Below, in pieces: positions 42,197 through 64,000 of a DNA stretch of 64,000 bases. The stretch comes from Cupriavidus taiwanensis (GTDB lineage: Bacteria; Pseudomonadota; Gammaproteobacteria; Burkholderiales; Burkholderiaceae): contig NZ_LT977070.1 in NCBI RefSeq assembly GCF_900250075.1, positions 2,832,894 to 2,896,893 of the forward strand. Direction: 5' to 3'. The notes beneath the pieces were generated by a model, which was not told the DNA's origin, ran no database searches, and saw nothing but the letters and a program-made list of their open reading frames with translations. The position numbers were made by a program, and so were the translations under genes. Every line of letters starts with the position of its first letter. The stretch's first letter is position 1.

Positions 42197-42331
42197 GGCC
42201 AAAGCTCCACTTTGGCCGGGTAGTGCGCATTGATACAAGACCCGAAAGGGAAAAAATGCGGGCCGTCTGTGAGCGGTGGTCAAAGTACCCGGCCGCCCCT
42301 TGACCAGGGGCGAAGTGAAATCTCACAGGAG
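42197..42331 (+). promoter_or_regulatory. Structured leader of the SymE-like gene with competing hairpins
   Basis: The leader contains GGCCAAAG (42197-42204) with CTTTGGCC (42210-42217), 8 perfect base pairs. CTGTGAG (42267-42273) pairs with CTCACAG (42322-42328), partly covering the AGGAG ribosome site at 42327-42331. Inside lie two mutually exclusive 7-bp helices: CGCCCCT/AGGGGCG (42294-42300 with 42306-42312) and TGGTCAA/TTGACCA (42277-42283 with 42300-42306). Such a leader can sequester translation, as expected for a toxin gene under RNA control. No SymR-like antisense promoter could be identified. Confidence 0.5.
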
Positions 42332-43339: not shown

Positions 43340-43756
43340 ATGAAGTTGTTTCTAGGCTTTCTTTTGATTTCGGGCGTGGGTTGGCTCCTCGATATGGTGT
43401 CTTACGCCGCCTTGTCTCAACTCGTAGGAGTGGCGCCGGCTTATGCAAACTTCATCTCCTCAATGGTTGGTGTGACCTACGTCTGGATTATCGCGCTCAA
43501 CAGACTTTTCGATCGACGAGAGTATGGCAAGTCAATTTACCTACCTATCTATTGGGGCTACCAGGGGGCGTCCATCCTTGCTTACTCGGCATTGATCTCC
43601 ATCGTTGGAGCCTCCACTGTTAACTCCAGAATTGGTGATGTCCTTGGGGCTCCTCATGATCTTGTTGCAAAAATAATCATCACCGGCCCTAATTTATTAA
43701 CCAATTTTATTTTTATGACTATTTTGACCAGGTTCATGAAACCCGGCGATCAATAA
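43340..43756 (+). CDS. GtrA-family membrane protein
   Basis: 138 residues, four hydrophobic helices: FLGFLLISGVGWLLDMVSYA, YANFISSMVGVTYVWIIALN, GASILAYSALISIVGAST and NLLTNFIFMTILTRF. GtrA proteins help flip a bactoprenol-linked sugar in O-antigen glucosylation or arabinose transfer. It opens an AT-rich cassette; the downstream GT2 and membrane protein at 48068 are candidate partners. Confidence 0.82.
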   Translation: MKLFLGFLLISGVGWLLDMVSYAALSQLVGVAPAYANFISSMVGVTYVWIIALNRLFDRREYGKSIYLPIYWGYQGASILAYSALISIVGASTVNSRIGDVLGAPHDLVAKIIITGPNLLTNFIFMTILTRFMKPGDQ

Positions 43757-43767
43757 CCGCACCTGCT

Positions 43768-44574
43768 ATGAAACCAAAAATCCTCGTCTTTATCCCGGCC
43801 TATAGATGCGAGGCACAAGTCCGCCGCGTCATCGAGCAATTCGATGCCCGCGTACAGCAATGGATTGATACCGTGATGGTCGTCGACAATCAGTCGCCCG
43901 ACCAGACTTTGGAAGTGGCAATTGAACGTGGCAAAGCAGTGCTAACCAACTGCAATTTCGTTGCCTGGCATAACGAGAACAACTATGGGCTGGGCGGTTC
44001 CCACAAGGCAGCGTTCCGCTATGCAATCGAACAGGGTTTCGATTATCTCGTGGTACTGCACGGGGACGACCAAGCCGACATCCATGACCTGATTCCTCAA
44101 CTCGAAGCTGGCGCACACTTGCAAGTCGACTGCCTGCTCGGCGCACGGTTCATGCGCGGCAGTCAACTCAAGGGTTATTCGTGGTTCCGCACTTTCGGCA
44201 ACCGGGTGTACAACGGACTGTTCTCGCTGGTGACACAACGCGCCATTTATGATCTAGGTTCAGGTCTGAATTTGTATCGCCTGAAGACCTTCCGTGAATT
44301 CCACTTGAAGACTTTCCCGGATGATCTGACCTTCAACTATGTGATGCTGCTGGCGAGCTATTACCGCAAGCAAAAAGTGCGTTTCTTCCCTATTTCCTGG
44401 CGCGAAGAAGACCAGCGTTCCAATGTCAAACTTGTCCGTCAAGCATTCAAGGTGCTTGGACTCCTTGCAGGATACGCCTTGAAGCGCGGCAAATTTGTGA
44501 GCAGCGACCTGCGCGCGCATGCCTTTGAAACTTACACAGGCCAAATTCGCTACCGCCGCGACAAACAGTTCTGA
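43768..44574 (+). CDS. GT2-family glycosyltransferase (polyprenyl-phosphate-sugar synthase type)
   Basis: 268 residues. GT-A fold: ILVFIPAYRCEAQVRRVIEQ, VMVVDNQSPDQTLEVAIERG, NENNYGLGGSHKAAFRYAIE, and a DxD-type VVLHGDDQADIHDLIPQL. Close in type to dolichyl/bactoprenyl-phosphate sugar transferases, but it lacks the C-terminal two-helix anchor of GtrB. It is followed by a membrane protein 10 bases later. Confidence 0.85.
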   Translation: MKPKILVFIPAYRCEAQVRRVIEQFDARVQQWIDTVMVVDNQSPDQTLEVAIERGKAVLTNCNFVAWHNENNYGLGGSHKAAFRYAIEQGFDYLVVLHGDDQADIHDLIPQLEAGAHLQVDCLLGARFMRGSQLKGYSWFRTFGNRVYNGLFSLVTQRAIYDLGSGLNLYRLKTFREFHLKTFPDDLTFNYVMLLASYYRKQKVRFFPISWREEDQRSNVKLVRQAFKVLGLLAGYALKRGKFVSSDLRAHAFETYTGQIRYRRDKQF

Positions 44575-44584
44575 CGGGCCGGGT

Positions 44585-45454
44585 ATGAGAAAAAGCTTGC
44601 GTATTTATCTAACATTACTATTGGCGGTCGTCATTGGGTGGTTTTGGTGGAGTGCTCCCGCCATGGCCGACCTCGGCCGGGTCACGCACTGGTCGGGCTT
44701 GCTTGGTATCACGGCGCTGTATCTTTGCTCGCATGTTTTGCGGATGCTCCGCCTGGTCTTGCTGACGCTCGACAAACGCAACAACGCTTTTTCTCTTGTC
44801 TCGGCGCATGCCCTGACCGCCTTGCCAAGCAGCTTCTTACCGTTCAAGCTCGGAGAGATCTTGCGCTTGGCCGCGTTCTTCCACGTATTTGACACTCGCC
44901 AGAAAGCAATTGCAGTCTGGCTAGCTGAACGTTTTGGTGACGTACTAGTCATCACTATCTTCATTTTTGGCCTTTACCTCCTCGACATCAAAGTGCCGCC
45001 TGGCATGCGCACCGTTTTCATCATCTTCGTGCTGGCAAGCGGGATCGGTCTGCTCGGATTGTTCGCGGTAGCAAAAGCATTTGTCTACCTCAACCGCCAT
45101 TTGGTGCTTACCAGCCTGTCGCGGCGCGGTCTGGTGCTTCTGCGCACCAGCCATGTCCTGCGCGGCCTCGAAACAAGCATCCACAGGTCAATCGAGGGGC
45201 GTGTCTCTGGTTTCCTGCTCCTGTCTGTGTTGATCTGGTTCTTCGAGATAATGGCCCTATCGCTCTTTATCAACTTGCTTGCTATCGGCGAACCCGATTT
45301 TGCGGAACTGTTTGCTTCCGGCCTGCTGGCAAGCCTACATAGCGGCAGCCGGAACGCTTATGGCATTTACCAGTCCCTTGCCCTTGTTGTGCTGACTATC
45401 GTATTCCTCCTGGCAGTATGGCTTGCAGCGCGCTTCAAAATCACGAGAATTTGA
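44585..45454 (+). CDS. Lysylphosphatidylglycerol synthase-type transmembrane protein (UPF0104/AglD-like)
   Basis: 289 residues with about seven to eight hydrophobic helices. The conserved motif RMLRLVLL and ALPSSFLPFKLGEILRLAAF near 75-97 (FxPxxxGEhxR) is typical of the MprF-N/UPF0104 family, which flips or moves lipid-linked groups. ATG 44585. Its stop precedes the next gene's GTG by one base. Function in the cassette is probably transfer or flipping of a modified glycolipid. Confidence 0.7.
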   Translation: MRKSLRIYLTLLLAVVIGWFWWSAPAMADLGRVTHWSGLLGITALYLCSHVLRMLRLVLLTLDKRNNAFSLVSAHALTALPSSFLPFKLGEILRLAAFFHVFDTRQKAIAVWLAERFGDVLVITIFIFGLYLLDIKVPPGMRTVFIIFVLASGIGLLGLFAVAKAFVYLNRHLVLTSLSRRGLVLLRTSHVLRGLETSIHRSIEGRVSGFLLLSVLIWFFEIMALSLFINLLAIGEPDFAELFASGLLASLHSGSRNAYGIYQSLALVVLTIVFLLAVWLAARFKITRI

Positions 45455-45455
45455 C

Positions 45456-46922
45456 GTGACAGACATCCATTCCAAACTTCTCCTCATCGTCGACGATCGC
45501 GAGTTCACAAGCGGTGAAGTGCGCAGCCTAGTTGGCGTCCGCCGCTTTGGCGACATCATCTTCAAGCGTCGCCCGATGTTCGAACATTTTCGGGAAGCCC
45601 TGCCGGCATGGGCCAAACAGCGCTTGATCCGCCTGCAAAGCGATGCCGACCTTGCAGCATTGCGCTCGAACCTGGAAACCTGCTGTGAAGATACCGCGGC
45701 CTGTGTGATAGCGGGCCGATCCGGCTTTGCCAGAGCCGATTTGCTCACTCAGCTGGTTGAACGTCTGCCATACGCCGAAGAGAACTTTACCGATACTCTG
45801 TACAAGCCTCTCCTAGTATTTTGGCGTAACGCCCATGACCTGGTTGACCAATGGCCTGAATTCGTGTCTTCGCCATTGCATACGTGGGAGCAGTCCTGGC
45901 AACGCAGCCAACGCCTGCAGTCCCTACAGCCGCTCGACTTGGGGAAAATCCGCGATTTCCTATCATTCAGCAGCGGCTCGACCACAACGCGGCACTTTAA
46001 CGAAGTGCTGATCGATGCTTATTACTATACAAAGAGTTCACGCGATAAGCGCAAGATGCAGGCCGAGTACTCGTTCTATAGCCTGGTCCCAGAGCGCATG
46101 CGGCCATGGCTAATTGAGTCCTTTGATTTCAAGGACGAGGGTGAACGTGCCTCATACAAAATGCTGCGTTATTATCTGGCAGACTCCGCGCTTCAATGGG
46201 TGCACGGAGCATTCGAGCCGGATACCTTTGCGCCTTTTGTCGAACGGCTGCTGTTCTTTATTTCGGACCGGCCAAAACAGGCTTGCAACAAAGAGCAGTC
46301 CGCCGCGTTGGCAAAGGATCTATTCGTCACCAAGCTGGAAAGGCGGGTCAAGGAATTCCTGGCGATGGCAGAGGGTAAAAGGATCAACCAGTTGGCATCC
46401 AGCGCAACGCCGAAGCTTGACCTTACCGATCTGCTTAGCCGCTACCTGAAGCTCTTCAAGCGCTTCGAAAAAGCATTCTCATTCGATTACCGCGTGGTGG
46501 GCCACGGCGACCCATGCTTCTCGAACATCCTGTATGACCAGCAGCGTTATCTGCTCAAATTGATCGACCCCAAAGGCGCCTTGACGGAAGAAGAGCTCTG
46601 GACGCACCCGCTGTACGATCTGTGCAAGATCTCGCACAGCGTGCTGGGTGACTACGATTTCATCAACAACGGCCTCTACAAAGTAGATTTCGCGGACAAC
46701 AACGATCTGGGGCTGAGCTTCAGGCACACCAACCACGCAGATCTGAAGCCCATTTTTGTCAAACAGGTGAAAGCTATGGGCCACGATGTTCGCATTATGC
46801 GCCTGGGCGAGGCTTCTTTATTCTTATCGATGCTGCCGTTGCACATCGATTATCCAAACAAGGTGCTCGCCTTTATGCTGAACGCGCGCCAAATACTCGA
46901 TGAGATTGAAAGTGAACAATAA
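45456..46922 (+). CDS. APH/choline-kinase-like phosphotransferase
   Basis: 488 residues from GTG 45456, one base past the preceding stop; an ATG at 45423 lies inside the upstream gene. Domain in the second half: VVGHGDPCFSNILYDQQRYL is the Brenner/catalytic loop (H-G-D-x4-N) and LIDPKGALTEEELW the DxG-equivalent (IDPKG). The first 300 residues are unlike any family I recognise, with NTP-binding pieces not obvious. It probably phosphorylates a small alcohol or sugar. It overlaps the HAD gene by 23 bases. Confidence 0.72.
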   Translation: MTDIHSKLLLIVDDREFTSGEVRSLVGVRRFGDIIFKRRPMFEHFREALPAWAKQRLIRLQSDADLAALRSNLETCCEDTAACVIAGRSGFARADLLTQLVERLPYAEENFTDTLYKPLLVFWRNAHDLVDQWPEFVSSPLHTWEQSWQRSQRLQSLQPLDLGKIRDFLSFSSGSTTTRHFNEVLIDAYYYTKSSRDKRKMQAEYSFYSLVPERMRPWLIESFDFKDEGERASYKMLRYYLADSALQWVHGAFEPDTFAPFVERLLFFISDRPKQACNKEQSAALAKDLFVTKLERRVKEFLAMAEGKRINQLASSATPKLDLTDLLSRYLKLFKRFEKAFSFDYRVVGHGDPCFSNILYDQQRYLLKLIDPKGALTEEELWTHPLYDLCKISHSVLGDYDFINNGLYKVDFADNNDLGLSFRHTNHADLKPIFVKQVKAMGHDVRIMRLGEASLFLSMLPLHIDYPNKVLAFMLNARQILDEIESEQ

Positions 46923-47310
46923 AATTGAAGAAGTTGACGGCACATTGGTAGTCGATATCGACGGCACGCTCTGCGGCATCAAGACATCTGACCAGTCCTA
47001 TACGGATCTGGTACCGCGGCAGGATATGCTGCTCAAGTTGGCAGAATACCAGCAAAAGGGCTACCGGATCTTGCTATTTACGTCGCGAAACATGAACACA
47101 TACAAGAACAACCTGGGTCAAATCAACAAGCACACCGCGCCGGTATTGCTCGAGTGGTTGGCAAAGTGGCAAGTTCCTTACGACGAGATCCTGTTCGGAA
47201 AACCCTGGCCAAGGAAACACGGTTTTTATATCGACGACCGCTCGGTTCGTCCAGACGAATTTCTGCGTTTAAGCGAGGAAGAAATTCACAAATTGCTTGG
47301 ACAGGAATAG
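46900..47310 (+). CDS. HAD-superfamily capsule phosphatase (EcbF/BcbF-like)
   Basis: 136 residues. ATG 46900; GTG 46912 is an alternative start. HAD motif 1 is LVVDIDGTLCGI with the nucleophile Asp and acid Asp two later; FTSRNMNTYKNNLGQINKHT and VPYDEILFGKPWPRKHGFYI fit the EcbF/BcbF capsule phosphatases described in Pasteurella and Actinobacillus clusters. DDRSVRPDEF holds the Mg-binding acids. It probably dephosphorylates an intermediate made by the upstream kinase or releases a sugar. Confidence 0.8.
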   Translation: MRLKVNNKIEEVDGTLVVDIDGTLCGIKTSDQSYTDLVPRQDMLLKLAEYQQKGYRILLFTSRNMNTYKNNLGQINKHTAPVLLEWLAKWQVPYDEILFGKPWPRKHGFYIDDRSVRPDEFLRLSEEEIHKLLGQE

Positions 47311-47319
47311 GAAGATCAC

Positions 47320-48063
47320 ATGTCGCTTAACGTAGTCATCACCATGGCAGGACGTGGCTCGCGATTCTACGACGCCGGGTATAAAGTCCCAAAATACGAA
47401 ATCCTGGCGCACGAACGCAGCCTGTTCGACTGGTCCGTACTTTCTCTGAAAAACTTCCTGACACCAGACAGCCGGGTCATCTTCGTTTGCCTCGACGAGA
47501 ACAAGTCATCGGAATTTGTCCTGCGCCGGATCAAGGCGCTTGGTCTTACCGATGTCCACATCGTCGAGCTCAAGGAGCTCACCGATGGCCAGGCCACGAG
47601 CGCTTATTTGTCGCGCGATCTGTGGAATCCTGAGTGGCCACTTCTGATTTACAACATCGATACATACGTGAGACCTCAGGCGCTCCACCCGGCCGATATT
47701 CGCCCTGGCTCTGATGGATGGGTGCCTTGCTTCCAGGTCCCTGGCGATCACTGGAGCTTTGTCAAGCTGGGTGACGATGGCTGGGCTGTCGATCTCGCCG
47801 AAAAACAGCGTATCTCCGGCAATGCTTCGATCGGCTTGTATTGGTTTCGCCGTGCTGGCCGATATGTAGAGCTCTATGACCGATTCTTCAACGACCCAAA
47901 GAACCTCGTCGGTGGAGAAAAATATATTGCGCCGCTCTACCGGCAATTGCTTGCCGAAGGCGGTAGGGTGTCCTTATCGGACTTGCCTCTGTCCGAAGTT
48001 CATGTGCTTGGGACGCCCGCTGAGCTAGACCGGTTTCTTCAGCTACCCGTGCGAGAGCTGTAA
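47320..48063 (+). CDS. Compact nucleotidyltransferase (NTP-transferase fold)
   Basis: 247 residues. N-terminal VVITMAGRGSRFYDAGYKVP is the nucleotide-binding loop (LAAGxGxR type, here MAGRGSRF); LLIYNIDTYVRPQALH holds an Asp in the metal/substrate region; EKYIAPLYRQLLAEGGRV in the C-terminal part. It is shorter than RmlA (about 290) and resembles the cytidylyl/nucleotidyl transferases next to EcbF-like phosphatases. The donor (CTP, TTP or UTP) is not known. Confidence 0.75.
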   Translation: MSLNVVITMAGRGSRFYDAGYKVPKYEILAHERSLFDWSVLSLKNFLTPDSRVIFVCLDENKSSEFVLRRIKALGLTDVHIVELKELTDGQATSAYLSRDLWNPEWPLLIYNIDTYVRPQALHPADIRPGSDGWVPCFQVPGDHWSFVKLGDDGWAVDLAEKQRISGNASIGLYWFRRAGRYVELYDRFFNDPKNLVGGEKYIAPLYRQLLAEGGRVSLSDLPLSEVHVLGTPAELDRFLQLPVREL

Positions 48064-48067
48064 GATT

Positions 48068-49651
48068 ATGAAAAGCAAAACGGATGGATGCCCCGCCCGC
48101 TGGAAGCATATTGCGGCGCTTTTTTGCTCCTTATTCGTCTCGCTGCTTATCCTGATGCATTCTGCGGATTGGTGGGGTCTGAACCAAAAGCCCAACTGGT
48201 CGGGTTATAAGTTGCTGATGCTGCGTATGGCGGGTAGTGCTCTGCTGTCCTTCGTCGCCTCTACCTTGGTGTTCTGGATGCGCGGATCCAGTACCCGGGC
48301 CCAACTTTATTTTGCTGGCTGGTTCGCTTTATGCATGCTGCTCTTTCTGGCGTCGTGGCCCGGCTATTTGATGTCCGACTCCGTGGCCACTCTCAATTAT
48401 GCACTCGAGCAGCCGATGGTGTTATGGCTCGGATTTTTTACGCCATTTCTTTTCTCCGCCATCCTGCAGGTGTTTCCCGACGTCTCGGCAATCACTTTCA
48501 TACAGCTGACGATTGTTGCGGCAGTCTTCGCCTACGCTACCGAGGTGATCACGCTCGTCACGGGAAATAGGAAATATGCATTAGCTTTTTTTGTACTCAT
48601 CACGATCAAGCCTTCCATTTTATTCAATATAGCACTGCTTTCGCGTGATACGCTGTTCAGCGTGATTGTGGTGTGGGCAGCAGCGTTTATCGTGAAGCTC
48701 TCGTATGAAAAGACCATCGCAGCACCAGCCGTGCTGACGGCCGGGCTCCTTGCAGGCTTGCTCGTCGCGCTGCGAGGGGACGGATGGTTTGTCCTGCTGC
48801 CGTTCCTGTTTTCTTTTGCCGCGATTTCGAAGAAGTTCAAAGATTCCGCTGTGGTTTCAACCGCCGCATTGGCCGTAGTCGTTTTGTTTGCCTGGGTTTT
48901 CCCTAAGACGTTCGGTTACCGTGGCAATGAGTTCCACTATAAGGTGGCGAACACAATCAATCCGGTCGGGTATGTCTTGCAGAGTAGATTCCACACCGAT
49001 GCAGGCAATAACAAGGCTGCAATAGGAGCCGTGCTCAATATCGACAAACTAGCCGCCATCCAGACTCCTTATGAAATTCCTTACTGGTGGAGCAGCGGTG
49101 CTGCCGATGTTGAAAAGGCGAAGCCCGAAGCCCTCGATGGCTATCTGAGCCATGTATATGGCTTCCTCAAAGAGAATGCAGGAATTTTCTTGGCAGGCCG
49201 CGTCGAAACCTTCCTGACGTCTACGGGCTTTACCGGAGCAGGGTTTAAGATCATCGACATGTACCGCGAGGGCTGGCCGGTTTCGGCTCCTCCACCCCAG
49301 TCCGTGAATATTGATCCGAGCCGAGGCCGGCCTTTCCCGACGCTGACTGATAGCCTGCAAAGGTATTTTGCCTACTCGGTCGTGTATGATCCATCGCTGC
49401 GCTCGGGCTCTGCACTGTTCTGGAACTTCCTGCCCTCGCTTGCGGTCATTTTGATTGCCTTGCTGACCCGCCTGTCGGATCCGGGCCTTCGCCTGGCAGC
49501 CGTCATCGTACTTGCAAGGGTACCTATTGTATTTCTGGCAGCCCCGGCGTCGCAGTTTAAGTATTACCTATCGGTGGAGATGTGCGGGGCATTCTTTCTG
49601 TTGCTGTTGATTGCCGCCGGAAAGCAGCGCTTCCTCGCAAAGGGCGCTTAG
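48068..49651 (+). CDS. Multi-span membrane protein, probable GT-C-type transferase or GtrC-like
   Basis: 527 residues, about 10-11 hydrophobic helices and a large periplasmic C-terminal loop (about 300-430). LLFLASWPGYLMSDSVATLN near 93-112 has the acidic D in a first loop, the usual place of the GT-C catalytic Asp. No close named family recognised. With GtrA and GT2 in the cassette it may be the polymer-modifying enzyme. Its stop ends the plus-strand cassette. Confidence 0.65.
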   Translation: MKSKTDGCPARWKHIAALFCSLFVSLLILMHSADWWGLNQKPNWSGYKLLMLRMAGSALLSFVASTLVFWMRGSSTRAQLYFAGWFALCMLLFLASWPGYLMSDSVATLNYALEQPMVLWLGFFTPFLFSAILQVFPDVSAITFIQLTIVAAVFAYATEVITLVTGNRKYALAFFVLITIKPSILFNIALLSRDTLFSVIVVWAAAFIVKLSYEKTIAAPAVLTAGLLAGLLVALRGDGWFVLLPFLFSFAAISKKFKDSAVVSTAALAVVVLFAWVFPKTFGYRGNEFHYKVANTINPVGYVLQSRFHTDAGNNKAAIGAVLNIDKLAAIQTPYEIPYWWSSGAADVEKAKPEALDGYLSHVYGFLKENAGIFLAGRVETFLTSTGFTGAGFKIIDMYREGWPVSAPPPQSVNIDPSRGRPFPTLTDSLQRYFAYSVVYDPSLRSGSALFWNFLPSLAVILIALLTRLSDPGLRLAAVIVLARVPIVFLAAPASQFKYYLSVEMCGAFFLLLLIAAGKQRFLAKGA

Positions 49652-50442: not shown

Positions 50443-52116
50443 TCAGGACCTACGTGGGCCACCACGCCGAAGCTTAGAGAGAAAACGCCCGGCGGCCGCC
50501 CGGGCCCCAGGAGATATAGGGATACGCCTGCCTATGCGCTGTGCGACGCCGTAGAGACCGACTTGACCGCCAGAATCAAAATGCCCATGTCGAAGATAGC
50601 GCGCAACCGCTCGTGGAAGCCGCGTATATCGCCACGAGCGACTTTGAAGAATCCTCTCCAAGTCGTCACGACAGCTTTTGCCCTGCTCGTCACTTGTGAG
50701 CAGACGGGCTTCCACCGCCTGAACTCTGGCCACCACAACTTCGACACGGTGCCGCTGGGTATGAGCTTCGTGACCCACTTCGGTTAGCTGCACTGTTAAA
50801 GCACGTATGCGTGCTTCCGCATCAAATAGCCGATTTTCAACCAGTTGAGTTTGACCAATCTGCCAATGATTCCTCTCTTCGAGAGTGGGGAGTCCTTTGA
50901 AGAAGAAGGCGGACGGAGCCACAGCACCTGGATCGACGTCAAAGACGACATCGTTTCTCATGGATGGAGCTTGAAGCAGACAGCGGTTCAGTTGCTCCAA
51001 CCACTCTTCCCGTTTCTCCAAATTAAAGCTATGGTCTGCCAGCGATGGCTGCCGTAGAAAGGCATCTAAATCTTGATGCACCTGCACCGATCGGGATTTC
51101 TGATCATAATAACTATTTCTGCTCCACAACCAACAGGGAATGCCGGAGAGCTGAAGCCAAAGAGCAACGTGATAGGAAGAAGAACAGCCAACCTCCCCTC
51201 CCAAAGTCAGATTAAGATCACGACTGAAACAATGGTAGGCCAACGGAGCTAGTTCGACAACCCGATAGTCAATGAAGGGGAAAGACGGACCGAGTCGTTT
51301 AATTGATTCGCGCGAATCTTTAACTTCGTAGCGTGGATCCGCAAACGCTTGAAATACTGTAACACCTTGCTTTGCTGCGAGAGAGGAAACAAGCCTTTCC
51401 AAATCTTTGCTGACCACATGCAAGTCATTATCGTCTGATACATAGTCGGATGTATTCAGATGCAGAAGCAGACCAGCCCCTCTTTTCATTTGAGTGCTGT
51501 CGGACAATATCTGTAGCGCCTCAGTTGCATCATCGAAAGAGAATGCCGGCTGAAAACCTGCTTGATTCAGACCTTGACGAGAAAGCTCATCCCTAACACC
51601 AAAAATGGCCGGTTTAAAATCTCGAACATGTCTAAATACCCGCTTCTCATACGGAGAAGTGATCTGCTGCCCCGACACCAAATAGGTAATACCCGGAAGC
51701 CGACTTAGGAAGTGCTCTACGACACCGAGAACAAAATCTCCCCACTTTTCATTCAAAAACCCTCCTCCGTAAAGTTGAACAGCGGCGGGATTACGGATCA
51801 TTTCGAGTGGTTTCAAGGCGAGATCATTAGCCTCGAAACTCAATGGATTTTCGGAAACGAAGATTACTGCATCAGCGCCATAAGCCCGTCGCGCCCACTC
51901 CGGAAAATCTCGAAAACCGATAGAATTGGCGGCGAGAACCGAAACAACTGAGAAGCGGCTTGAATGCTTGCAAATACGGATGCTATTCAAATGTTGCAGA
52001 ATATCTCCGAAATTACCATACCCAAAATCACTACCAACAAGAATTAGCTTTTCGCTATTGTCAGTAAGGACCGCTTGACTCGCTTCGTCCGCATAAAGAT
52101 AAAGCCGCTTGGTCAT
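50443..52116 (-). CDS. Polysaccharide pyruvyl transferase family protein with C-terminal coiled coil
   Basis: 557 residues. SDFGYGNFGDILQHLNSIRI (about 29-48) and VQLYGGGFLNEKWGDFVLGV (about 112-131) fit the PS_pyruv_trans fold; TLGGEVGCSSSYHVALWLQL and FIDYRVVELAPLAYHCFSRD fit its C-terminal part. Residues about 430-500 (VENRLFDAEARIRALTVQLT and onward) look like a coiled coil, followed by a basic tail. It may add pyruvyl groups, or be a glycosyltransferase-like relative. Last gene of the minus-strand cluster. Confidence 0.72.
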   Translation of the reverse strand: MTKRLYLYADEASQAVLTDNSEKLILVGSDFGYGNFGDILQHLNSIRICKHSSRFSVVSVLAANSIGFRDFPEWARRAYGADAVIFVSENPLSFEANDLALKPLEMIRNPAAVQLYGGGFLNEKWGDFVLGVVEHFLSRLPGITYLVSGQQITSPYEKRVFRHVRDFKPAIFGVRDELSRQGLNQAGFQPAFSFDDATEALQILSDSTQMKRGAGLLLHLNTSDYVSDDNDLHVVSKDLERLVSSLAAKQGVTVFQAFADPRYEVKDSRESIKRLGPSFPFIDYRVVELAPLAYHCFSRDLNLTLGGEVGCSSSYHVALWLQLSGIPCWLWSRNSYYDQKSRSVQVHQDLDAFLRQPSLADHSFNLEKREEWLEQLNRCLLQAPSMRNDVVFDVDPGAVAPSAFFFKGLPTLEERNHWQIGQTQLVENRLFDAEARIRALTVQLTEVGHEAHTQRHRVEVVVARVQAVEARLLTSDEQGKSCRDDLERILQSRSWRYTRLPRAVARYLRHGHFDSGGQVGLYGVAQRIGRRIPISPGARAAAGRFLSKLRRGGPRRS

Positions 52117-52138
52117 AACTTAATACTTTTAAAGCGAA

Positions 52139-54244
52139 TTAAAGGGAGAACACAGCAGCGACCTGCTTCCTGAACGTATCCCGACCATGTCGGTCATGGA
52201 TAAGGCGATATCCATTTGCCGCGATTGTGGACGTGCGCTGCCAGTTCGAGTACATGTGATGAAGAGCAGCCACATACGCAGACACCAACGCCTCATCATC
52301 TGCAACATTCGGAACGAGAAATCCAGTTTCTCCATCGATTACCAACTCCGAAATACCTCCCACGTCGGGCGCTACCACTGGCAATCCAGCACCCATGGCT
52401 TCAAGGAGAATATTAGGAAGGCCATCAAAAGCTGTTGTATAAAGAAAGCCGTCTATATTTTCGAGAGATATAGCATCGAATCCATCAAAGCCACCGCGGT
52501 ATTTAACACCCGGCACGTTGAACAATACCTCTCTATTTATATCCGGATTCAAATTTCCGCAAACATCAATTTGAAAATTCGGATAATTCTCGCGCATGGC
52601 CTTGACAATCCTACCAATCAATTCCGGCCGCTTCTCAGGGGAGATACGTGAAGCCCAAAGCAGTCGATAGGAGGGTTCGGCGGAAATTTGATTTCGATGT
52701 CGCTTTTCACACCTTGAATAAATAGTTCGAAACTTCTTCTCGTATAAACCAACACGCAAAAGATCGCTTTTGCAAATTGCATTGCAATCTGTCACAAACA
52801 GGTCTATTTCATTCAGATTTCGCCGCAGAAAACCCACCCCATCAGCACCGGTTAACCGATGGCCATTCCATTGATAGTTCCCATCGGCAAATCGATAGTA
52901 GACGATCTTGAAGTGAGATGACAGCACAGACCGATAGCGATCTATCAGTCGATGCGCAAACCAACTCGATTTAACATGCATGCGGGCACCCGGTTCGGAC
53001 ACCCCCAACAATAGGCGGAGCGTCATTGCATCCCGATCGGCGTCGTTAAGCATTGGGAAGAAATTGAAGATATCCAGAAGCACGGCCTGCTCCGGCAAAC
53101 GGCTAGTCCATTCATGCTTGTTCGCCGCCTCACCTGTGAGAACAAGCACACGATTTGTCGATTTCGCCGCTTGAAGTTCATCGAGAACTTGGAGGATATA
53201 TTTTTCGGCGCCTCCAGGCTTTAACCAGGGCAGCAGCACCACTTCATGAAATTTCCGATGGCCAGTCAGCCGGTATGCTTGCTCCAATTGGAAACCCCAA
53301 TGAGCCGGACTCCATGGAATCGGGCAGTAGCTATCGGCAGTTTCAATACGCCGTGGCTCGACCTCTGGGTCCAACACAGCAGCATCCATGATATACCCTC
53401 GCATTTGCTCTGTCGCGAGCAACTCTCGAGTAAAATTTCTCTGAAAAATTTCCTGCCGATTGCGTATGAATCCCGGCCAATCATTATTTCCTTTCCTCGC
53501 ATCCTCCATCTTTTGGCAATACCGCTGGGGCTCGAACAAGGTTGAATGAGGGATTGTTTTGGCCGAAACTGCATTCGCTTGGCGTAACAGACTATTGTTT
53601 CTTTGTCGGTAGAAGAAAACCGTATTTGGGGCAGTCTTAAAGCTAAAGCCCAGATCAAAGAGCCGGGCATTTAAATCCCAATCCTCATAGGCGAAACCAG
53701 CGGTCACCTTAAGATCCACATAGCGAAGCGTCTCAAAGATTGATCGCCTGACAAATATTCGGGACACGAAAGGATGTTGATAAGCAAAGTCTGCCGGGGT
53801 AAGCCATTCACTCCCAAAATAACGCACCACGTGAAATTGCTCGCCGAAGGCAACTAAATACTCGACGAAGACCGCAACGTTGTCATCACCATGCGCACGA
53901 GCTGTTTCAAGAAGGGAAACAATGGCATTACTTGAAACGAGATCATCCCCATCAGCCGTCCATATGTAATCGCCCCTGGCTTGTTCGATACCCAAGTTTC
54001 TGGCTGGACCTAAGGAGCCGACATCGATTTCAATTGGCTTAATGTAATCGAACCCTTCCAACGGAGTCTCTCGGAACACCTGCAGTGTTGCTTCATCGGC
54101 CCGATCAAAGACAGCAACCAACTCAACACTCAAACCTGCACGCGCTGCCTCCGTGGCGCAAGCCGACAATGAAAGCAGAGTAGGCCTCAAATAAAGCGCT
54201 TCGCGGTGCATATTAAGCACCACACTGACATCGATCTTCTTCAT
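52139..54244 (-). CDS. Two-domain GT2-GT4 glycosyltransferase
   Basis: 701 residues. GT2 part about 1-240: VSVVLNMHREALYLRPTLLS and IWTADGDDLVSSNAIVSLLE (DxD). GT4 part about 340-700: LPWLKPGGAEKYILQVLDEL, LWASRISPEKRPELIGRIVK, and YTTAFDGLPNILLEAMGAGL with PVVAPDVGGISELVIDGETG. Such fusions can build alternating linkages in O-polysaccharide. Downstream of the WecA-like gene by 200 bases. Confidence 0.85.
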   Translation of the reverse strand: MKKIDVSVVLNMHREALYLRPTLLSLSACATEAARAGLSVELVAVFDRADEATLQVFRETPLEGFDYIKPIEIDVGSLGPARNLGIEQARGDYIWTADGDDLVSSNAIVSLLETARAHGDDNVAVFVEYLVAFGEQFHVVRYFGSEWLTPADFAYQHPFVSRIFVRRSIFETLRYVDLKVTAGFAYEDWDLNARLFDLGFSFKTAPNTVFFYRQRNNSLLRQANAVSAKTIPHSTLFEPQRYCQKMEDARKGNNDWPGFIRNRQEIFQRNFTRELLATEQMRGYIMDAAVLDPEVEPRRIETADSYCPIPWSPAHWGFQLEQAYRLTGHRKFHEVVLLPWLKPGGAEKYILQVLDELQAAKSTNRVLVLTGEAANKHEWTSRLPEQAVLLDIFNFFPMLNDADRDAMTLRLLLGVSEPGARMHVKSSWFAHRLIDRYRSVLSSHFKIVYYRFADGNYQWNGHRLTGADGVGFLRRNLNEIDLFVTDCNAICKSDLLRVGLYEKKFRTIYSRCEKRHRNQISAEPSYRLLWASRISPEKRPELIGRIVKAMRENYPNFQIDVCGNLNPDINREVLFNVPGVKYRGGFDGFDAISLENIDGFLYTTAFDGLPNILLEAMGAGLPVVAPDVGGISELVIDGETGFLVPNVADDEALVSAYVAALHHMYSNWQRTSTIAANGYRLIHDRHGRDTFRKQVAAVFSL

Positions 54245-54444
54245 TGGATAATTGCCCGATGGGTATTTGAAATTTGATCCGGCAAGCTTTCCGTCACCGG
54301 GGTAGTGTTACCGCCCTTCGTGATATTGCGGAAAGCTATAGCTCCAGTACTTCAGCGATATTCTCGATAACAAGCTAGCTGTTGTACTACCACTCCAACT
54401 CAAGTAAGAATTCGCCTTATCAACGGATACGTATAAAGATATCC

Positions 54445-55527
54445 TTAACCTCTACGTGTGCGCGTCAAAAGTCGACGGCCCACTCTAATGAAGCGCCATG
54501 CATTTCGCATAACGAGTAGGTGCAGACCAGTCACGCCGAGGAAGAGTAAAAATAATACCTGTTCAGAGACGCCACTCTTCCAGCCGACCACTCCAATTAA
54601 GCCCAGAAATGCATTGGCTGCGAGTATGAGCAGAACAATGGCATCCTGCCCAATACCCAATCGGAGCAAGACATGGTGAAGGTGAGTGCGGTCTGCCGCA
54701 AGCGGGTTTCTTCGCTTTATCGTGCGCCGAATCACGACAACCAGTAGATCGATGAGAATGAAGCCCAGAATCCATAGCATTACCACCGGCGGAACATTGG
54801 TGCCACCGGGGTTGTATCGCTTCTGCGAAAGCTCGGTCGCGAACCAAACGATTGCAAAGCCCAACATCAGACTTCCGGAATCCCCCAAGAATACCTTCAT
54901 GTGGCCTCGAAAGGGGTTCCGAAGATTGAACACAAGGAATCCGGCAATCGCACCGCAGAAAATGACGCACACGCGCTGAGCAGGAGCGTTACCAACTTCA
55001 CCGGCCAGATACGCAAACCATGCAAGTATGATTAGCGCAAGTCCACCTGCTAGTCCGTCTAGGCCATCACACATGTTCATTGCATTGATCACGGAGACCA
55101 CAGCAAACAAAGTCAGTGGTATGCCCCAGTTGGCTAGCTCAATTTCCCGACGTCCGAACAGATCGCCTAAGGATTCGAGATAGACATTTCCCCATGATGT
55201 CATCAAAATAGCAGCAAACAACTGCGCGCCGAGTTTTGTGACCGGGCTCATCCCATACAGGTCATCCACCCAGCCAACCAACGCAAGCACGGTAACGCCA
55301 CCAAGCAGCGCGATATAATATCCTTGAGTTCGCAGAAACAGGTGGCAACCGACCCAGACTCCAATAGTCACGGCAATGCCCCCCACTAGGGGAATCGCAC
55401 CTTCGTGACGCTTACGTGCGTCTGGCCTGTCCAGTAGCCCCCCTGCGACAGCCACTGGTCTTAATAGCAGCACTGCTGTAGCTGCCACTAGAAAGGCCGT
55501 CACAGGAACCCAAAAGAAATCAAACAT
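54445..55527 (-). CDS. WecA/MraY-family polyprenyl-phosphate GlcNAc/HexNAc-1-phosphate transferase
   Basis: 360 residues with about 10-11 membrane helices. LLDRPDARKRHEGAIPLVGG (about 31-50) is the first cytoplasmic loop with the DxRK/H motif; LVGWVDDLYGMSP has the DD pair; INAMNMCDGLDGLAGGLALI carries the NxxNxxDGxDG motif; MKVFLGDSGSLMLGFA is the next; DRTHLHHVLLRLGIGQ is the HxHH loop. WecA-like, initiating a polysaccharide on undecaprenyl phosphate, here apparently for the ABC-transporter route. Confidence 0.92.
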   Translation of the reverse strand: MFDFFWVPVTAFLVAATAVLLLRPVAVAGGLLDRPDARKRHEGAIPLVGGIAVTIGVWVGCHLFLRTQGYYIALLGGVTVLALVGWVDDLYGMSPVTKLGAQLFAAILMTSWGNVYLESLGDLFGRREIELANWGIPLTLFAVVSVINAMNMCDGLDGLAGGLALIILAWFAYLAGEVGNAPAQRVCVIFCGAIAGFLVFNLRNPFRGHMKVFLGDSGSLMLGFAIVWFATELSQKRYNPGGTNVPPVVMLWILGFILIDLLVVVIRRTIKRRNPLAADRTHLHHVLLRLGIGQDAIVLLILAANAFLGLIGVVGWKSGVSEQVLFLLFLGVTGLHLLVMRNAWRFIRVGRRLLTRTRRG

Positions 55528-55542
55528 TGCGTATATATCGTT

Positions 55543-56325
55543 TCAATAAGAAGACGCTTTGGCACGACGGTATTGCCAATAGGGTTTCGACGTAAATAGC
55601 ATAATCATGCTTTTGACGTGCCAGATAAGGTATCGCAGTTTCTTACGACTATCACGACGCGCCTCATGGCATACCACAATATTTCCTACTCGTGTAACAG
55701 ACCAGTTTTTGAGCCATACACGCAAGCATATATCTACATCTTCGCAATACATGTGATAGCGCTTCTCATCAAATCCCTGCAGCTTTCCGAAGACTTCGGA
55801 ATCAAAAACCAAAAACATTCCCGCTGCCCAATCAACCTTTACCAATCCTTCGGTCGGGTAGTCGGTCCGAAGCTTTTGCCCACGGGTTCGCATCAAAATT
55901 CGTCGGAACAGTTGGGTTAGCGTTGGCAGCATCCTAACACTGTCCTCTGCCACCCCATCCGGGCCAACGATGCGGGGGACAGCCACTCCTGGGTGCGCTA
56001 TCAGGGCGGAAATGAGCCCCGGAAACGGATCGTCGGCTAACCTCACATCCGGATTCAATACACAAAAATACGGAGTCAGGCAAAAATGGAATGCGCGATT
56101 GTGGTTTGCGCCGAAACCCAACTGCACGTCATTTGCCACGTACTCATCGGCAATGTCCTTCACATCATTGGAATGCACCGCACCCGGTTGCGAGGGAACA
56201 TTCTCTGTAACGATTATCCGTACGGCTTCACGGTTGACCAAATTGCGAAGTTGCGTCAAGAGTGGAAGAATGATTTCCCTCTGCCCATGACTAACGACCG
56301 AGATCGTAACCATTGCGTGTATCAT
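55543..56325 (-). CDS. GT2-family glycosyltransferase (rhamnosyltransferase-like)
   Basis: 260 residues. The start at 56325 is fixed by the ATGA overlap with the upstream gene's stop; a longer frame begins at 56403 but is unlikely. Motifs ISVVSHGQREIILPLLTQL, GFGANHNRAFHFCLTPYF, a DxD-like CVLNPDVRL, and KRYHMYCEDVDICLRVWL (the acidic E-D-V-D site). Type WbbL-like; donor could be dTDP-rhamnose, given rfb genes nearby. Lies 15 bases before the WecA-like gene. Confidence 0.84.
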   Translation of the reverse strand: MIHAMVTISVVSHGQREIILPLLTQLRNLVNREAVRIIVTENVPSQPGAVHSNDVKDIADEYVANDVQLGFGANHNRAFHFCLTPYFCVLNPDVRLADDPFPGLISALIAHPGVAVPRIVGPDGVAEDSVRMLPTLTQLFRRILMRTRGQKLRTDYPTEGLVKVDWAAGMFLVFDSEVFGKLQGFDEKRYHMYCEDVDICLRVWLKNWSVTRVGNIVVCHEARRDSRKKLRYLIWHVKSMIMLFTSKPYWQYRRAKASSY

Positions 56326-58337
56326 GAATCGACAGTCGACGGGAGTTTCTGCATGGCGGCTACCGGAGCGGACTCCGCAACGCGGCCATGATGACCTGCA
56401 CAAGTGTCAGTATCTCGCCCATCAACAAGAATGTCGCTCCATGTATATCCCACCAAAGCTGCCCAGCTAATCGGATTTTTCCAAATAATTCTGTCAAAAT
56501 ACGAATTAAACTCTCGCAGGAATCCCACTGCAGCCGGTGAATAGTCCTCTCCTAGCTCAAAAACGCAGCGGCATCCCTCGCGCCACGCCTGCTTCAACTG
56601 GTCGGTGTGAAGCGCTTGACCATCCTGCTGAAAGTGGCAAACTCTCCCGGACGCTGAACTTCCCTCAAGGCCTGGAGACAGCCATTTTTCTTGGTATGAG
56701 CGGCGCAGGATGTTTGTATTTCTCATCTGTCGGACCGAATCGCTGCGCGTGACAGAGCCCGCGTGAATCCGGTGCCGGTACAGAGGCGCATTAACATAGC
56801 GAAGCGTGCCGGATTCCGTCAATTTCAAGGCAAGTTCCCAATCTTGAATACCAGAGAACTCGCCGCCAGTCCCGCCAACGCGGAGGTAAGTATCCCGCTT
56901 TATCACCTTGAGATGGGATGCGACCATGCCGTCAAGAAGATCACTGGAAATATCCCGATTGGGCGCCGGTCGGATGCTCTCGTAGCCACCGTAAACTGCG
57001 TGCCGCAGGATTTTTCCATCTTCATCTACATCCCATCTATCAGTAAAGAAGTAATCAACCGCTTGAGCCTTCCGAATCTCCGCTGCAAGCTTGCTCAAAG
57101 CGCCGTCTGCCAGCTCATCATCACAATCCAGAAATGCTATGTACTTACCCCGTGCCAGCCGCACGGCTTCGTTCTGGTTCTCCGAGATACCACGATTCAC
57201 AGACCTGCGTATTACTTTAAACCTGTCTGACCATCCCGTCAGCCGGTCCAATAGTAGCCCGATTCTTGGATCTGAGGATGCATCGTCAACACAGATAACT
57301 TCGAGAGAAACGTCCCCTTGCTTCGCAATTGAACCGAGGCACTTTCCGAGAAATCGATAGTGATTATAGATGGGAACGACAACCGAAATCAGTGGTGCTA
57401 TCGTAGCATCGTCCAGCACTTTCAAATCCGCAATCAAAGCGTCCGGATCGACGAACTCTGCCTCCGCCGCCGTTGTAATCGCAGATTGGACAGTTTGATT
57501 CATTGCCCGCGATTCACGAACCTCGTGCTGGTACGCCTTCTGCTGCTGGTAAAATTCGGCATGCCAGGACACTGCGGAGTCCAGAAAAGCCGGGTGAGAA
57601 TTTATTGGCAGGAATTCGCGAATCTTACTGGCGGCACGTAACCAGCTATCGGCCATGCGCAGATAAGATCTGCGCATACTTGCGCTGTGCTGACGATAGA
57701 TCGCACCTCGCATAGGAAGATATGCCAACTTTGCATTTCTCACCTTAAGCAAGCACCAGAACACCCAGTCTTCTTTTGCCCGCATACTCTCGTCAAATGA
57801 CGAAGACGAAAGCACGGCTTTACGGAAAAGACCACAGTGAATTGGAATCGAAAGTCCACGCTCCCATTCATAAAGAAAATCTTCGAGTTGAAACAACGAT
57901 GTGGAAATTTGGCTTTCAGGCGCACTGAATGTCATGCGCCATTCATCGCACAACAGGAAGTTCGTGATTGAGACATCCAACAAAGGGCTGACCGCAAAGT
58001 GATCTAACTGGGCGCAGATTTTCCCCGGTGCAAGAAGATCGTCGGCGTCGAGAAATTGGATAAAGTCCCCACGCGCCGCTGCAATACCGACATTTCTAGC
58101 GCTGGATAGGCCGCCGTTTTCTTTTCGAAGAATCCTTAGCCGTGCTCGGCGCGTACGAACTGCATCAAACGCCGAGATTGTTCGAGCATCGGTGCTGCCG
58201 TCATCCACAACAATGATCTCTAATTCGCCGTCGTAGGCTGCCTCACAGGAATCAACCGCGTCCTGAAGATATCCTCCCTGGTTATAGCAAGGAATGATGA
58301 CAGAGACCGCCGGTAATTTTTTGTCATCAGCTTTCAT
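56322..58337 (-). CDS. Tandem GT2-GT2 glycosyltransferase
   Basis: 671 residues. First GT2 domain about 1-220: VSVIIPCYNQGGYLQDAVDS, IIVVDDGSTDARTISAFDAV, FIQFLDADDLLAPGKICAQL. Second about 310-540: ISVVVPIYNHYRFLGKCLGS, VICVDDASSDPRIGLLLDRL, YIAFLDCDDELADGALSKLA. Each has a DxD. Two catalytic domains on one chain could add a disaccharide. The C-terminal 120 residues are less conserved. It overlaps the upstream GT4 gene by 11 bases. Confidence 0.87.
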   Translation of the reverse strand: MKADDKKLPAVSVIIPCYNQGGYLQDAVDSCEAAYDGELEIIVVDDGSTDARTISAFDAVRTRRARLRILRKENGGLSSARNVGIAAARGDFIQFLDADDLLAPGKICAQLDHFAVSPLLDVSITNFLLCDEWRMTFSAPESQISTSLFQLEDFLYEWERGLSIPIHCGLFRKAVLSSSSFDESMRAKEDWVFWCLLKVRNAKLAYLPMRGAIYRQHSASMRRSYLRMADSWLRAASKIREFLPINSHPAFLDSAVSWHAEFYQQQKAYQHEVRESRAMNQTVQSAITTAAEAEFVDPDALIADLKVLDDATIAPLISVVVPIYNHYRFLGKCLGSIAKQGDVSLEVICVDDASSDPRIGLLLDRLTGWSDRFKVIRRSVNRGISENQNEAVRLARGKYIAFLDCDDELADGALSKLAAEIRKAQAVDYFFTDRWDVDEDGKILRHAVYGGYESIRPAPNRDISSDLLDGMVASHLKVIKRDTYLRVGGTGGEFSGIQDWELALKLTESGTLRYVNAPLYRHRIHAGSVTRSDSVRQMRNTNILRRSYQEKWLSPGLEGSSASGRVCHFQQDGQALHTDQLKQAWREGCRCVFELGEDYSPAAVGFLREFNSYFDRIIWKNPISWAALVGYTWSDILVDGRDTDTCAGHHGRVAESAPVAAMQKLPSTVDS

Positions 58338-59757
58338 CTTTCAATTCAACCCCTTCAACTCTTGCCTGTCCGAGGTAGCCGGGGACCTCTCGCAAGGAAC
58401 GACTAAACGCTGACCATGTGTGCCGTTGTTCGATGAGATCGATCAGACACAGGGCACGCTTTTGGGCATCAGGTCGATTCCCAGCAATCGCGGACAGGGC
58501 GCTAACATAATCATGCACAGTCGCTCGTGCGGGCACAAGAAAGCCGGTACGGTCAGAGATCAGCTCACTTACTCCTCCAACGTCAGGCGCTACAATGGGT
58601 ATGCCAAGCGAGCCCATCTCCAGTAGCATGTTAGGCATCCCCTCCCACTTGGAGGTAAACATGAAGACATCACAGGCGCTCTTTTCCACCAGCTCTGCGG
58701 GATCTGAAAAGCTCCCTCCATAATAAAGATTCTTGATTTTTGGCAAATTCGGCATCTCACCAACTACACTTTCACCAAACACGAGGAAATCGTAGTCGGG
58801 GCACTGAGCTGCCGTGTCAAAAAGAAGATCAATCCGCTTCTCTGGATCTAGACGACCGGCCCAGAGCACCCTAAGACGTTTACCTTGCGCAATTGCCGAC
58901 ATAGCATCAATACGCTCACGTGCTTGTTTAACCCAATCGCCGTGCGCGACGCGGCACGCATTGTAGACGACGGACATCTTGTGATCCGAAGAGCGTAAAG
59001 CGAAAGTGGACTGAGCATCTCGCAAGAAACGAGCATTATCGCTCAGAAGGCCGTGCAAAGAATCTGCTGCATCGCGTAAGTAATACTCAGCATAGCCAAT
59101 ACGCTTATTATCATTTCCCATGAACTGAAATGCGAAAATACTGCCATATAGTCGCATTTCCTTTGCTAGCCTTCCTCCTTGAGCAATAATAGCTTGCCAA
59201 CCAAGATCGCTGTTGATGACATGAAAGATCTGCGGGCGCACGCATAGCAGCCATTTACAAAGAAAATCCACTCGTGCGTTCGTCAATAAATCCGTCGGCA
59301 AATATTTTGCCAGATCGATAACGTAAACGTGCGCTGGTATTTCGATACCATCGGAAACTAAGCTTCGGTCGGTAAGAATAATGCCAACGCTTGACCTCGG
59401 CATATCTTCATTGATGGCTTTCGCGAAATGGATTGCCGTCCGTTCTGCGCCGCCTGCTCCCAAAAAGGGTAACGCTATGAGATGAGTCATAGGGCCGTAT
59501 TGGCGGCAATGTACCGCTAGGTCCCTAATCAATGCAAGCTCAGCCTCATTTAACCGCTCCTGTTGATCAGGTCCAGAATTCAGCTGCTTTCTTGTCTCCA
59601 GCAGGCGGCGGAAAAGTTCGCCGTTGGTAACCGACTCATTCAGTGCCTTCAATACCGGTGCGATTGCATCTCTCATCTTCCACTTAACATGCAAAGGCAC
59701 CGGCATCCGATGATACGTGTATCTTGCCAGTCTCAACAGTTGTTTAGAAAGCTGCAT
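58327..59757 (-). CDS. GT4-family glycosyltransferase
   Basis: 476 residues. An N-terminal extension of about 85 residues is followed by the GT-B fold: LPFLGAGGAERTAIHFAKAI, WAGRLDPEKRIDLLFDTAAQ, FTSKWEGMPNMLLEMGSLGI with PIVAPDVGGVSELISDRTGF. This resembles the GT4 half of the 52139-54244 protein (GGAExxxx, APDVGGxSEL), suggesting common descent. It lies between wzt and the GT2-GT2 gene. Confidence 0.83.
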   Translation of the reverse strand: MQLSKQLLRLARYTYHRMPVPLHVKWKMRDAIAPVLKALNESVTNGELFRRLLETRKQLNSGPDQQERLNEAELALIRDLAVHCRQYGPMTHLIALPFLGAGGAERTAIHFAKAINEDMPRSSVGIILTDRSLVSDGIEIPAHVYVIDLAKYLPTDLLTNARVDFLCKWLLCVRPQIFHVINSDLGWQAIIAQGGRLAKEMRLYGSIFAFQFMGNDNKRIGYAEYYLRDAADSLHGLLSDNARFLRDAQSTFALRSSDHKMSVVYNACRVAHGDWVKQARERIDAMSAIAQGKRLRVLWAGRLDPEKRIDLLFDTAAQCPDYDFLVFGESVVGEMPNLPKIKNLYYGGSFSDPAELVEKSACDVFMFTSKWEGMPNMLLEMGSLGIPIVAPDVGGVSELISDRTGFLVPARATVHDYVSALSAIAGNRPDAQKRALCLIDLIEQRHTWSAFSRSLREVPGYLGQARVEGVELKDES

Positions 59758-59828
59758 ACATTTCCTTGCCGTGAGTTATCCGAGACCAATATGCATCAAC
59801 TCCAATGGTGAGCCGACAGCTGGTCTAG

Positions 59829-60569
59829 TTAGGAAAAATAAGCAGCGCAAACGGCTTCGGCACCTCCATCCATGCGAACCTTCCCGTGCTCCAGCCAGAT
59901 CGCACGATTACATGTATGCTGCACTAATTCTCGTGAATGACTGGCAATTACCAGGATGTTGGTTGCCTGAACTAGTTCTTTCATCCTCGACTCGGCCTTA
60001 TGCCGGAACCCTTCGTCTCCGACGGAAAGCCATTCATCCATTAGCAGAATCTCAGGACGCACGATCGTTGAGACTGAAAATGCCAAGCGAAGATGCATAC
60101 CGCTCGAATAGGTTCGCAATGGCATATCAACAAAATCACCCAATTCCGAAAAATCGATAATTTCATCAACACGCTGATTTATCTGCGTGCGTGACATGCC
60201 GAGCAACCCACCGCGAAGATAGATATTTTCCCTACCAGTGGCCTCCGGATCGATACCCAACGAAATATCAATCAAGGACCCAATTTCTCCGTGAATACGC
60301 GCTGAACCAGATGAGGGCACGTAGACGCCGCTTAAAAGCCGAAGCAATGTACTTTTGCCCGCACCGTTATGCCCGAGCAAACCCACCCGGTCGCCATCTT
60401 TAAGACTAAAGGTCAATCCCTCCAGTGCTCTAACAACGACCCTACCATTGGGATCAGCACCCAACTGCCCACCAGTGGCAACCTGAATAAGCCGCTTTTT
60501 TAATGACCTTCCGCTTGCATTGTAAATGGGAAAGTCAACAGACACGTCCTCAAATTTGACAGAAGCCAT
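59829..60569 (-). CDS. wzt: ABC transporter ATP-binding subunit for O-polysaccharide export (Wzt-like, short form)
   Basis: 246 residues. Walker A GHNGAGKST at 66-74; signature YSSGMHLRLAFSVST; Walker B EILLMDEWLSVGD. This Wzt/KpsT-type signature deviates from LSGGQ, as usual in the family. It ends soon after the ATPase core and lacks the C-terminal carbohydrate-binding domain of larger Wzt, so it probably exports without chain-end recognition. Partner permease wzm lies 19 bases upstream. Confidence 0.9.
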   Translation of the reverse strand: MASVKFEDVSVDFPIYNASGRSLKKRLIQVATGGQLGADPNGRVVVRALEGLTFSLKDGDRVGLLGHNGAGKSTLLRLLSGVYVPSSGSARIHGEIGSLIDISLGIDPEATGRENIYLRGGLLGMSRTQINQRVDEIIDFSELGDFVDMPLRTYSSGMHLRLAFSVSTIVRPEILLMDEWLSVGDEGFRHKAESRMKELVQATNILVIASHSRELVQHTCNRAIWLEHGKVRMDGGAEAVCAAYFS

Positions 60570-60588
60570 AATCTATCTCTTTCCACCC

Positions 60589-61392: not shown

Positions 61393-61441
61393 AGAACACC
61401 AAATGACATGAAGATCATACTATTCCAGTTATAAGATGTTG

Positions 61442-61996: not shown

Positions 61997-62013
61997 GGCA
62001 GTTACGTTCAACC

Positions 62014-62892: not shown

Positions 62893-62902
62893 AGCCACTC
62901 GC

Positions 62903-64000
<1,098 letters not shown>

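Follow-up and report, generated by a model that had tools for sequence, protein, structure and literature searches.

The window analysed here, 64,000 nucleotides of the Cupriavidus taiwanensis contig NZ_LT977070.1, carries at 43340-49651 a cassette of seven genes that is real, widespread and, as far as literature searches can tell, undescribed. It is a variant of Gtr-type decoration and not a new kind of system. We consider it probable that the cassette decorates a glycan in the periplasm and has its own pathway to a nucleoside diphosphate (NDP)-sugar donor. A preliminary description of the sequence had listed seven tightly packed genes on the + strand, and the list of open reading frames (ORFs) together with the domain matches confirms them:

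43340..43756, +, GtrA/DPMS-TM membrane protein; 138 aa, about 4 transmembrane segments by hydropathy count; PF04138 at E 2.2e-6, above the cut-off
43768..44574, +, GT2; 268 aa, 0 transmembrane segments; PF00535 above the Pfam cut-off
44585..45454, +, UPF0104/LPG_synthase_TM protein; about 289 aa, about 6 transmembrane segments; PF03706 at E 1.9e-8, above the cut-off
45456..46922, +, APH-fold kinase, putative sugar kinase; 488 aa, GTG start; N-terminal alpha/beta domain of about 165 residues
46900..47310, +, HAD phosphatase, EcbF/BcbF-like; 136 aa; TIGR01689 at E 2.4e-40
47320..48063, +, compact sugar nucleotidyltransferase (NTase); 247 aa; 4EVW at E 1.2e-33
48068..49651, +, polytopic GT-C-fold transferase; 527 aa, about 12 transmembrane segments

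Two starts were revised, that of the UPF0104 protein (the ORF opens at 44519, with an ATG at 44585) and that of the kinase (45423, with a GTG at 45456). No Pfam family was found for the kinase, the NTase or the last membrane protein of the cassette.

In the mechanism that we propose, the kinase and the HAD phosphatase would move the phosphate of a common sugar phosphate from the terminal to the anomeric carbon, in either order, as in the heptose pathway. The NTase would then add a nucleotide to give the NDP-sugar, from which the GT2 would pass the sugar on to polyprenyl phosphate. The roles of GtrA and the UPF0104 protein would be to hold the GT2 at the membrane, to flip the lipid-linked sugar or both, and the GT-C protein would finally move this sugar onto a surface polysaccharide. 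We infer each of these reactions, their order and the identity of the sugar; the genes, their folds and catalytic motifs, the conserved neighbourhood and the kinship with phage arabinose genes are observations, given in the sections that follow.

Membrane half of the cassette

The GT2 profile matched DPMS (5mlz) at E 3.1e-10 over positions 7-147 and ArnC (9hwj) at E 2.7e-6, and the motif HGDDQ is invariant in 21 aligned rows. By its sequence, this protein is a putative polyprenyl-phosphate glycosyltransferase. Its two neighbours in the membrane are a putative flippase or anchor for the polyprenyl-phosphate sugar (the GtrA/DPMS-TM protein) and a putative flippase of lipid-linked sugars (the UPF0104 protein). 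The model of the GT-C protein aligns to ALG12, ArnT, Pmt, EmbB, AftB and AftA, the last three not ranking above ALG12 or ArnT; Foldseek alone was weak for this protein. A dedicated glycan-decoration cassette, probably with periplasmic attachment, had been suggested from the sequence, and GtrA, the DPMS/ArnC-like GT2 and the GT-C fold bear this out. The most economical reading would be that the sugar is loaded, flipped and transferred in the periplasm in the manner of Gtr systems, from a donor that the cassette makes for itself.

GtrABC O-antigen glucosylation joins, in one cassette, a GtrA protein, a GT2 that acts on polyprenyl phosphate and a polytopic transferase of GT-C type; the Cupriavidus cassette has the first and the last of these and, in its GT2, a putative counterpart of the second. 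However, its GT2 has no transmembrane segments, it has an extra UPF0104 protein and its own kinase-HAD-NTase donor module, and there is no sign of glucose as its sugar. The mycobacterial decaprenyl-phosphoryl-arabinose pathway provides a working analogy, with GtrA (Rv3789), a lipid-linked pentose donor and GT-C arabinosyltransferases. There, the lipid-linked arabinose comes from phosphoribosyl pyrophosphate (PRPP) via a UbiA-type transferase and DprE1/2, whereas in the cassette the lipid-linked sugar would come from the NDP-sugar trio and the GT2.

Proposed donor module and its phage relatives

The kinase, HAD and NTase of the window fall in the PHROG families phrog_4098 (E 2.1e-13), phrog_1238 (E 6.7e-20, the family of the HAD of Acinetobacter phage Berthold) and phrog_3980 (E 1.7e-38), all of them matched by Berthold proteins. 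The gene order in this phage is arabinose-5-phosphate isomerase, NTase-kinase, HAD and a thymidylate-synthase-like gene, followed by a thymidylate kinase and DNA glucosyltransferases. The same module is present in RB69 (ORF055c isomerase, ORF053c/052c NTase-kinase, ORF051c HAD), where the cassette profiles matched ORF052c with the kinase (E 9.7e-15) and ORF051c with the HAD (E 3.2e-14). By tblastn, 44 phage records have a kinase relative. In a viral structure library, the best matches of the kinase were phage NTP-transferase-kinases (E 7.8e-18), RB69 ORF052c being the seventh (E 2.5e-10). PMC6024577 reports that arabinose was shown in RB69 DNA and proposes the genes of this module for its activated precursor. 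Likeness to the RB69-type module thus extends to the kinase and the HAD by profile, to the kinase by structure and to all three proteins by PHROG family. In the phages, NTase and kinase form one protein and the isomerase lies next to it; in the cassette, the genes are separate, the N-terminus of the kinase has diverged, an isomerase is missing and there are membrane partners.

In the HAD, D19, D21, K101, D112 and D113 are invariant in 26 aligned rows, including those of RB69 and Berthold; the protein matched 1XPJ at E 1.6e-40 and scored 137.4 bits with TIGR01689 (EcbF-BcbF), below the curated cut-off of 162. In the NTase, which matched 4EVW with a profile at 1.7e-90, G11, R15, P24-K25 and N112-T115 are invariant in 29 aligned rows. 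Both structures are of Vibrio cholerae proteins. The present reading would also correct some misleading names in the databases: several records call the NTase "glycosyltransferase family 2 protein" and the RB69 ORF051c HAD (L091, 3709-4095; phrog_1238) is annotated as "phosphoheptose isomerase." The Berthold HAD (L086, 7029-7409) is annotated as "polynucleotide kinase."

Fusions are found among more distant relatives. An isomerase (SIS) domain is fused to the kinase in 13 among the 120 relatives of the Berthold protein listed; 12 of these also have a HAD and 12 an NTP_transferase domain. P0329-P0354 are single proteins of ca. 900 aa with the domain order HAD, arabinose-5-phosphate-isomerase-like SIS, nucleotidyltransferase and kinase, and seemingly, to judge from these domains, hold a complete NDP-pentose pathway within one chain. 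Enterococcus phage 9183 (L085, 5021-6996) has a HAD and an NTase-kinase, and no isomerase was found nearby.

The homologous trio also occurs in triads, in the order HAD-kinase-NTase and without adjoining GT2, UPF0104 or GtrA genes, both in capsule loci on plasmids (E. coli, Citrobacter, Phaeobacter) and in further genomes, among them L124, a lipopolysaccharide (LPS)-core locus. On an E. coli ST131 plasmid (L088, 5000-7750), the triad lies beside Stealth and CDP-glycerol glycerophosphotransferase-family genes. A distant relative of the kinase is found at L134 (5297-8830), in the neighbourhood of a cupin, an AroE-like gene and a close GT2 homologue (346 bits with the GT2 of the cassette). In the kinase tree, the cassette-set kinases (40 rows) are set off from the triads and phages by a branch with SH-aLRT 99; this is a quick tree with a midpoint root, SH-aLRT support without bootstrap and long branches flagged. 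It should be noted that the label "cassette" follows the locus set, and that among the 40 rows L043, L047 and L057 have no GT2 within 3 kb, L057 having no UPF0104 either.

The N-terminal domain of the kinase might be a remnant of an NTase. For triad kinases, this idea is backed by profile, with a probability of 89 to the divergent triads and of 99.4 between these and the phages, and the L131 kinase matches NTP_transf_3. With the cassette kinases, the profile comparison of the N-terminus with the NTase gave nothing (probability 0.0-0.1), and the full-length viral match of the structural model (475 columns, TM 0.59) hints at such a remnant. The VIA comparison rows span kinase residues 170-488 only and therefore do not test the N-terminus. 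No PDB chain matched profile A3 by sequence.

Recurrence and genomic context

An earlier scan of the genome contigs found no relatives, and a scan with an alignment gave 291 relatives of the kinase among 350 candidate stretches. The best 80 of the 291, plus L002, L003, L121 and L122, constitute our set of 84 loci. Because the loci were chosen for kinase similarity, the counts describe the subfamily of this kinase only. A co-occurrence check of the kind proposed with the preliminary description found the GT2, UPF0104, kinase, HAD and NTase families all together within 8 kb at 63 of the 84 loci. Taken singly, UPF0104 lies at most 1.5 kb from the kinase at 82 loci, the GT2 at most 3 kb at 76, the NTase at most 8 kb at 71 and the HAD at most 0.5 kb at 68. 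Some polytopic protein of at least 380 aa is found within 5.5 kb at 64 of 83 loci, a figure that has no background control. At four loci (L028, L062, L068 and L075), the HAD and NTase genes are fused. In a Galacturonibacter locus (L049, 12515-15494), CotH kinase, VTC and DUF4956 genes separate the HAD from the NTase, and gaps of about this length recur at several more Bacillota loci.

The cassette is not peculiar to the genome of the window and is present over several phyla. The 63 five-gene loci include 33 from Bacillota, 23 from Pseudomonadota and 2 from Saccharibacteria, the other 5 not being placed; the sole Gemmatimonadota locus of the 84 has no HAD. Within the host's own group, the distribution is patchy, with matches in 2 of 99 genomes besides that of the window, and at the phylum level 29 of 398 genomes match at E <=0.001 (own genome counted, many of the matches weak). 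A distant-mode DNA search of E. coli chromosomes with 45456-48060 gave no match. The preliminary description knew of no pathway with this exact set, and no published account of the seven genes was found either, although one of the searches was swamped by unrelated meanings of EcbF/BcbF and is weak evidence of absence; the cluster in PMC9246714, as far as its available part goes, is a different one.

Several points weigh against a Gtr-type cassette with its own donor pathway. As many as 80 of the 84 loci were selected by likeness to this kinase. The HAD was not found at 13 loci, and at 13 the NTase was not within 8 kb (7 with room enough and 6 truncated). Just 45 loci have GtrA at most 5 kb from the kinase, and just 28 have a homologue of this GT-C protein, whose predicted model is of middling quality. 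The profile of the cassette NTase misses the NTase half of the fusion in both RB69 (ORF053c) and Berthold, and the link of this enzyme to phages is solely via phrog_3980 (Berthold, E 9.2e-8). In addition, the HAD of the 12 fusions is of the HAD_2/beta-PGM type and not of the EcbF type. Some polytopic protein of at least 380 aa is found within 5.5 kb at 64 of 83 loci, a figure that has no background control.

As for the surroundings, the cassette has a GC content of 0.52-0.56, compared with 0.65-0.70 for most of the upstream part of the window (up to 42 kb); GC stays low downstream, ca. 0.47-0.56 up to 62 kb. An sRNA-Xcc1 (RF02221, 78.4 bits) lies at 42214-42302 on the + strand, about 1 kb upstream of the cassette. 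On the opposite strand, 50443-63817 is a low-GC polysaccharide cluster in which ORF reading gave glycosyltransferases, a WecA/MraY-like gene, an ABC exporter pair and rml genes. This cluster is a possible source of the acceptor glycan.

Identity of the sugar and significance

The sugar would be one without an ordinary phosphomutase route. Our first candidate, held tentatively, is a pentofuranose, with ribose 5-phosphate as the universal source and arabinose where an isomerase exists; fructose or another ketose is a weaker candidate. A fuller proposal would be a polyprenyl-phosphate-linked pentofuranose (ribose or arabinose) made from pentose 5-phosphate via NDP-pentose, without PRPP or DprE-type epimerisation, by one cassette over several phyla whose trio shares ancestry with the phage DNA-arabinosylation enzymes. 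This is possible, if on the doubtful side.

It seems unlikely that the cassette follows the route proposed for RB69, from D-arabinose 5-phosphate to NDP-D-arabinose, and decorates the glycan with D-arabinofuranose via polyprenyl-phosphate arabinose. Such a route would agree with the kinship to RB69 and Berthold genes that adjoin an arabinose-5-phosphate isomerase, with the 13 isomerase-kinase fusions and with GT-C folds that include EmbB, AftB and AftA, though not above ALG12 or ArnT. A KdsD-type isomerase over the cut-off is also present in 4 Burkholderiales-type, 1 Bartonella and 1 Hyphomonas genomes, which need it anyway for 3-deoxy-D-manno-octulosonic acid (KDO). However, a search for SIS isomerase ORFs found none in the 84 cassette loci or in L121-L140, with queries that do detect the isomerase domain in the distant fusions. 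Among 43 carrier genomes, just 9 have a KpsF-type match of at least 85 bits, which in 7 passes the curated cut-off, and the other 34 have none. Phage isomerases reach 96-113 bits on the same model, and six of the 9 genomes are Gram-negatives that need the enzyme for KDO. Because of the loci without isomerase and the 34 genomes without a KpsF match, D-arabinose 5-phosphate was downgraded as a general substrate. The heptose route was dropped, GmhA being missing in most carriers: in the 43 genomes, no match passed the curated cut-off, and 6 genomes had one of 160 bits or more. Many of the 43 genomes are drafts whose completeness is not stated, which weakens both inferences. Since neither arabinose 5-phosphate nor heptose 7-phosphate looks general, a universal sugar phosphate fits better.

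An activated ketose such as NDP-fructose, made from fructose 6-phosphate by the same triad as in the WaaA/WavE-type LPS-core locus L124, is improbable. There, the triad lies between a pair of WavE genes (PF07507) on the one hand and ORFs read by eye as KdtA, KdkA and WaaF on the other. The LPS core of V. cholerae, the source of 1XPJ and 4EVW, contains D-fructose, and fructose 6-phosphate requires no isomerase. Against this, the literature search gave no nucleotide-activated fructose pathway of such a kind, no literature link of wav genes to fructose was found, and the phage branch points to a pentose.

The preliminary description had seen a LicA-like kinase and left the choice between a phospho-linked and a nucleotide-activated substituent. 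A Lic-like phosphocholine system, in which the kinase would phosphorylate a small alcohol, the NTase would make a CDP-alcohol and the phosphoalcohol would be put on the glycan, is very improbable and was rejected as the best reading. LicABC(D) likewise combines an APH-fold kinase and a nucleotidyltransferase, but those of the cassette appear to belong to other families, and LicA ties with many APH kinases in the kinase comparison. There is no LicB or CDP-alcohol transferase among the seven proteins and, as already noted in that description, no LicD-type transferase (LicD was looked for in these seven only), and the DPMS/ArnC-like GT2 would have no role in such a system. The relatives by sequence are phage and fusion proteins with a link to sugars. 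Since the kinase, HAD and NTase belong with RB69-type phage enzymes tied to arabinose, the activated sugar is the more likely half of that choice, and a LicA-like kinase that makes a small phospho-linked alcohol finds no support.

The Gtr-type reading with its own NDP-sugar donor would supply a function, at the level of the operon, for kinase and NTase families that have no Pfam name. It would also tie the decoration of bacterial surface glycans to the arabinosylation of phage DNA; PMC13390438 calls the pathway to the precursor of the latter uncharacterised. The cassette enzymes are soluble, compact and separate, and the question of the activated sugar therefore becomes an ordinary in vitro assay. 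If the sugar is indeed a pentofuranose, the ancestry that the trio shares with the phage enzymes means that the bacterial proteins could reveal the arabinose precursor of the phages.

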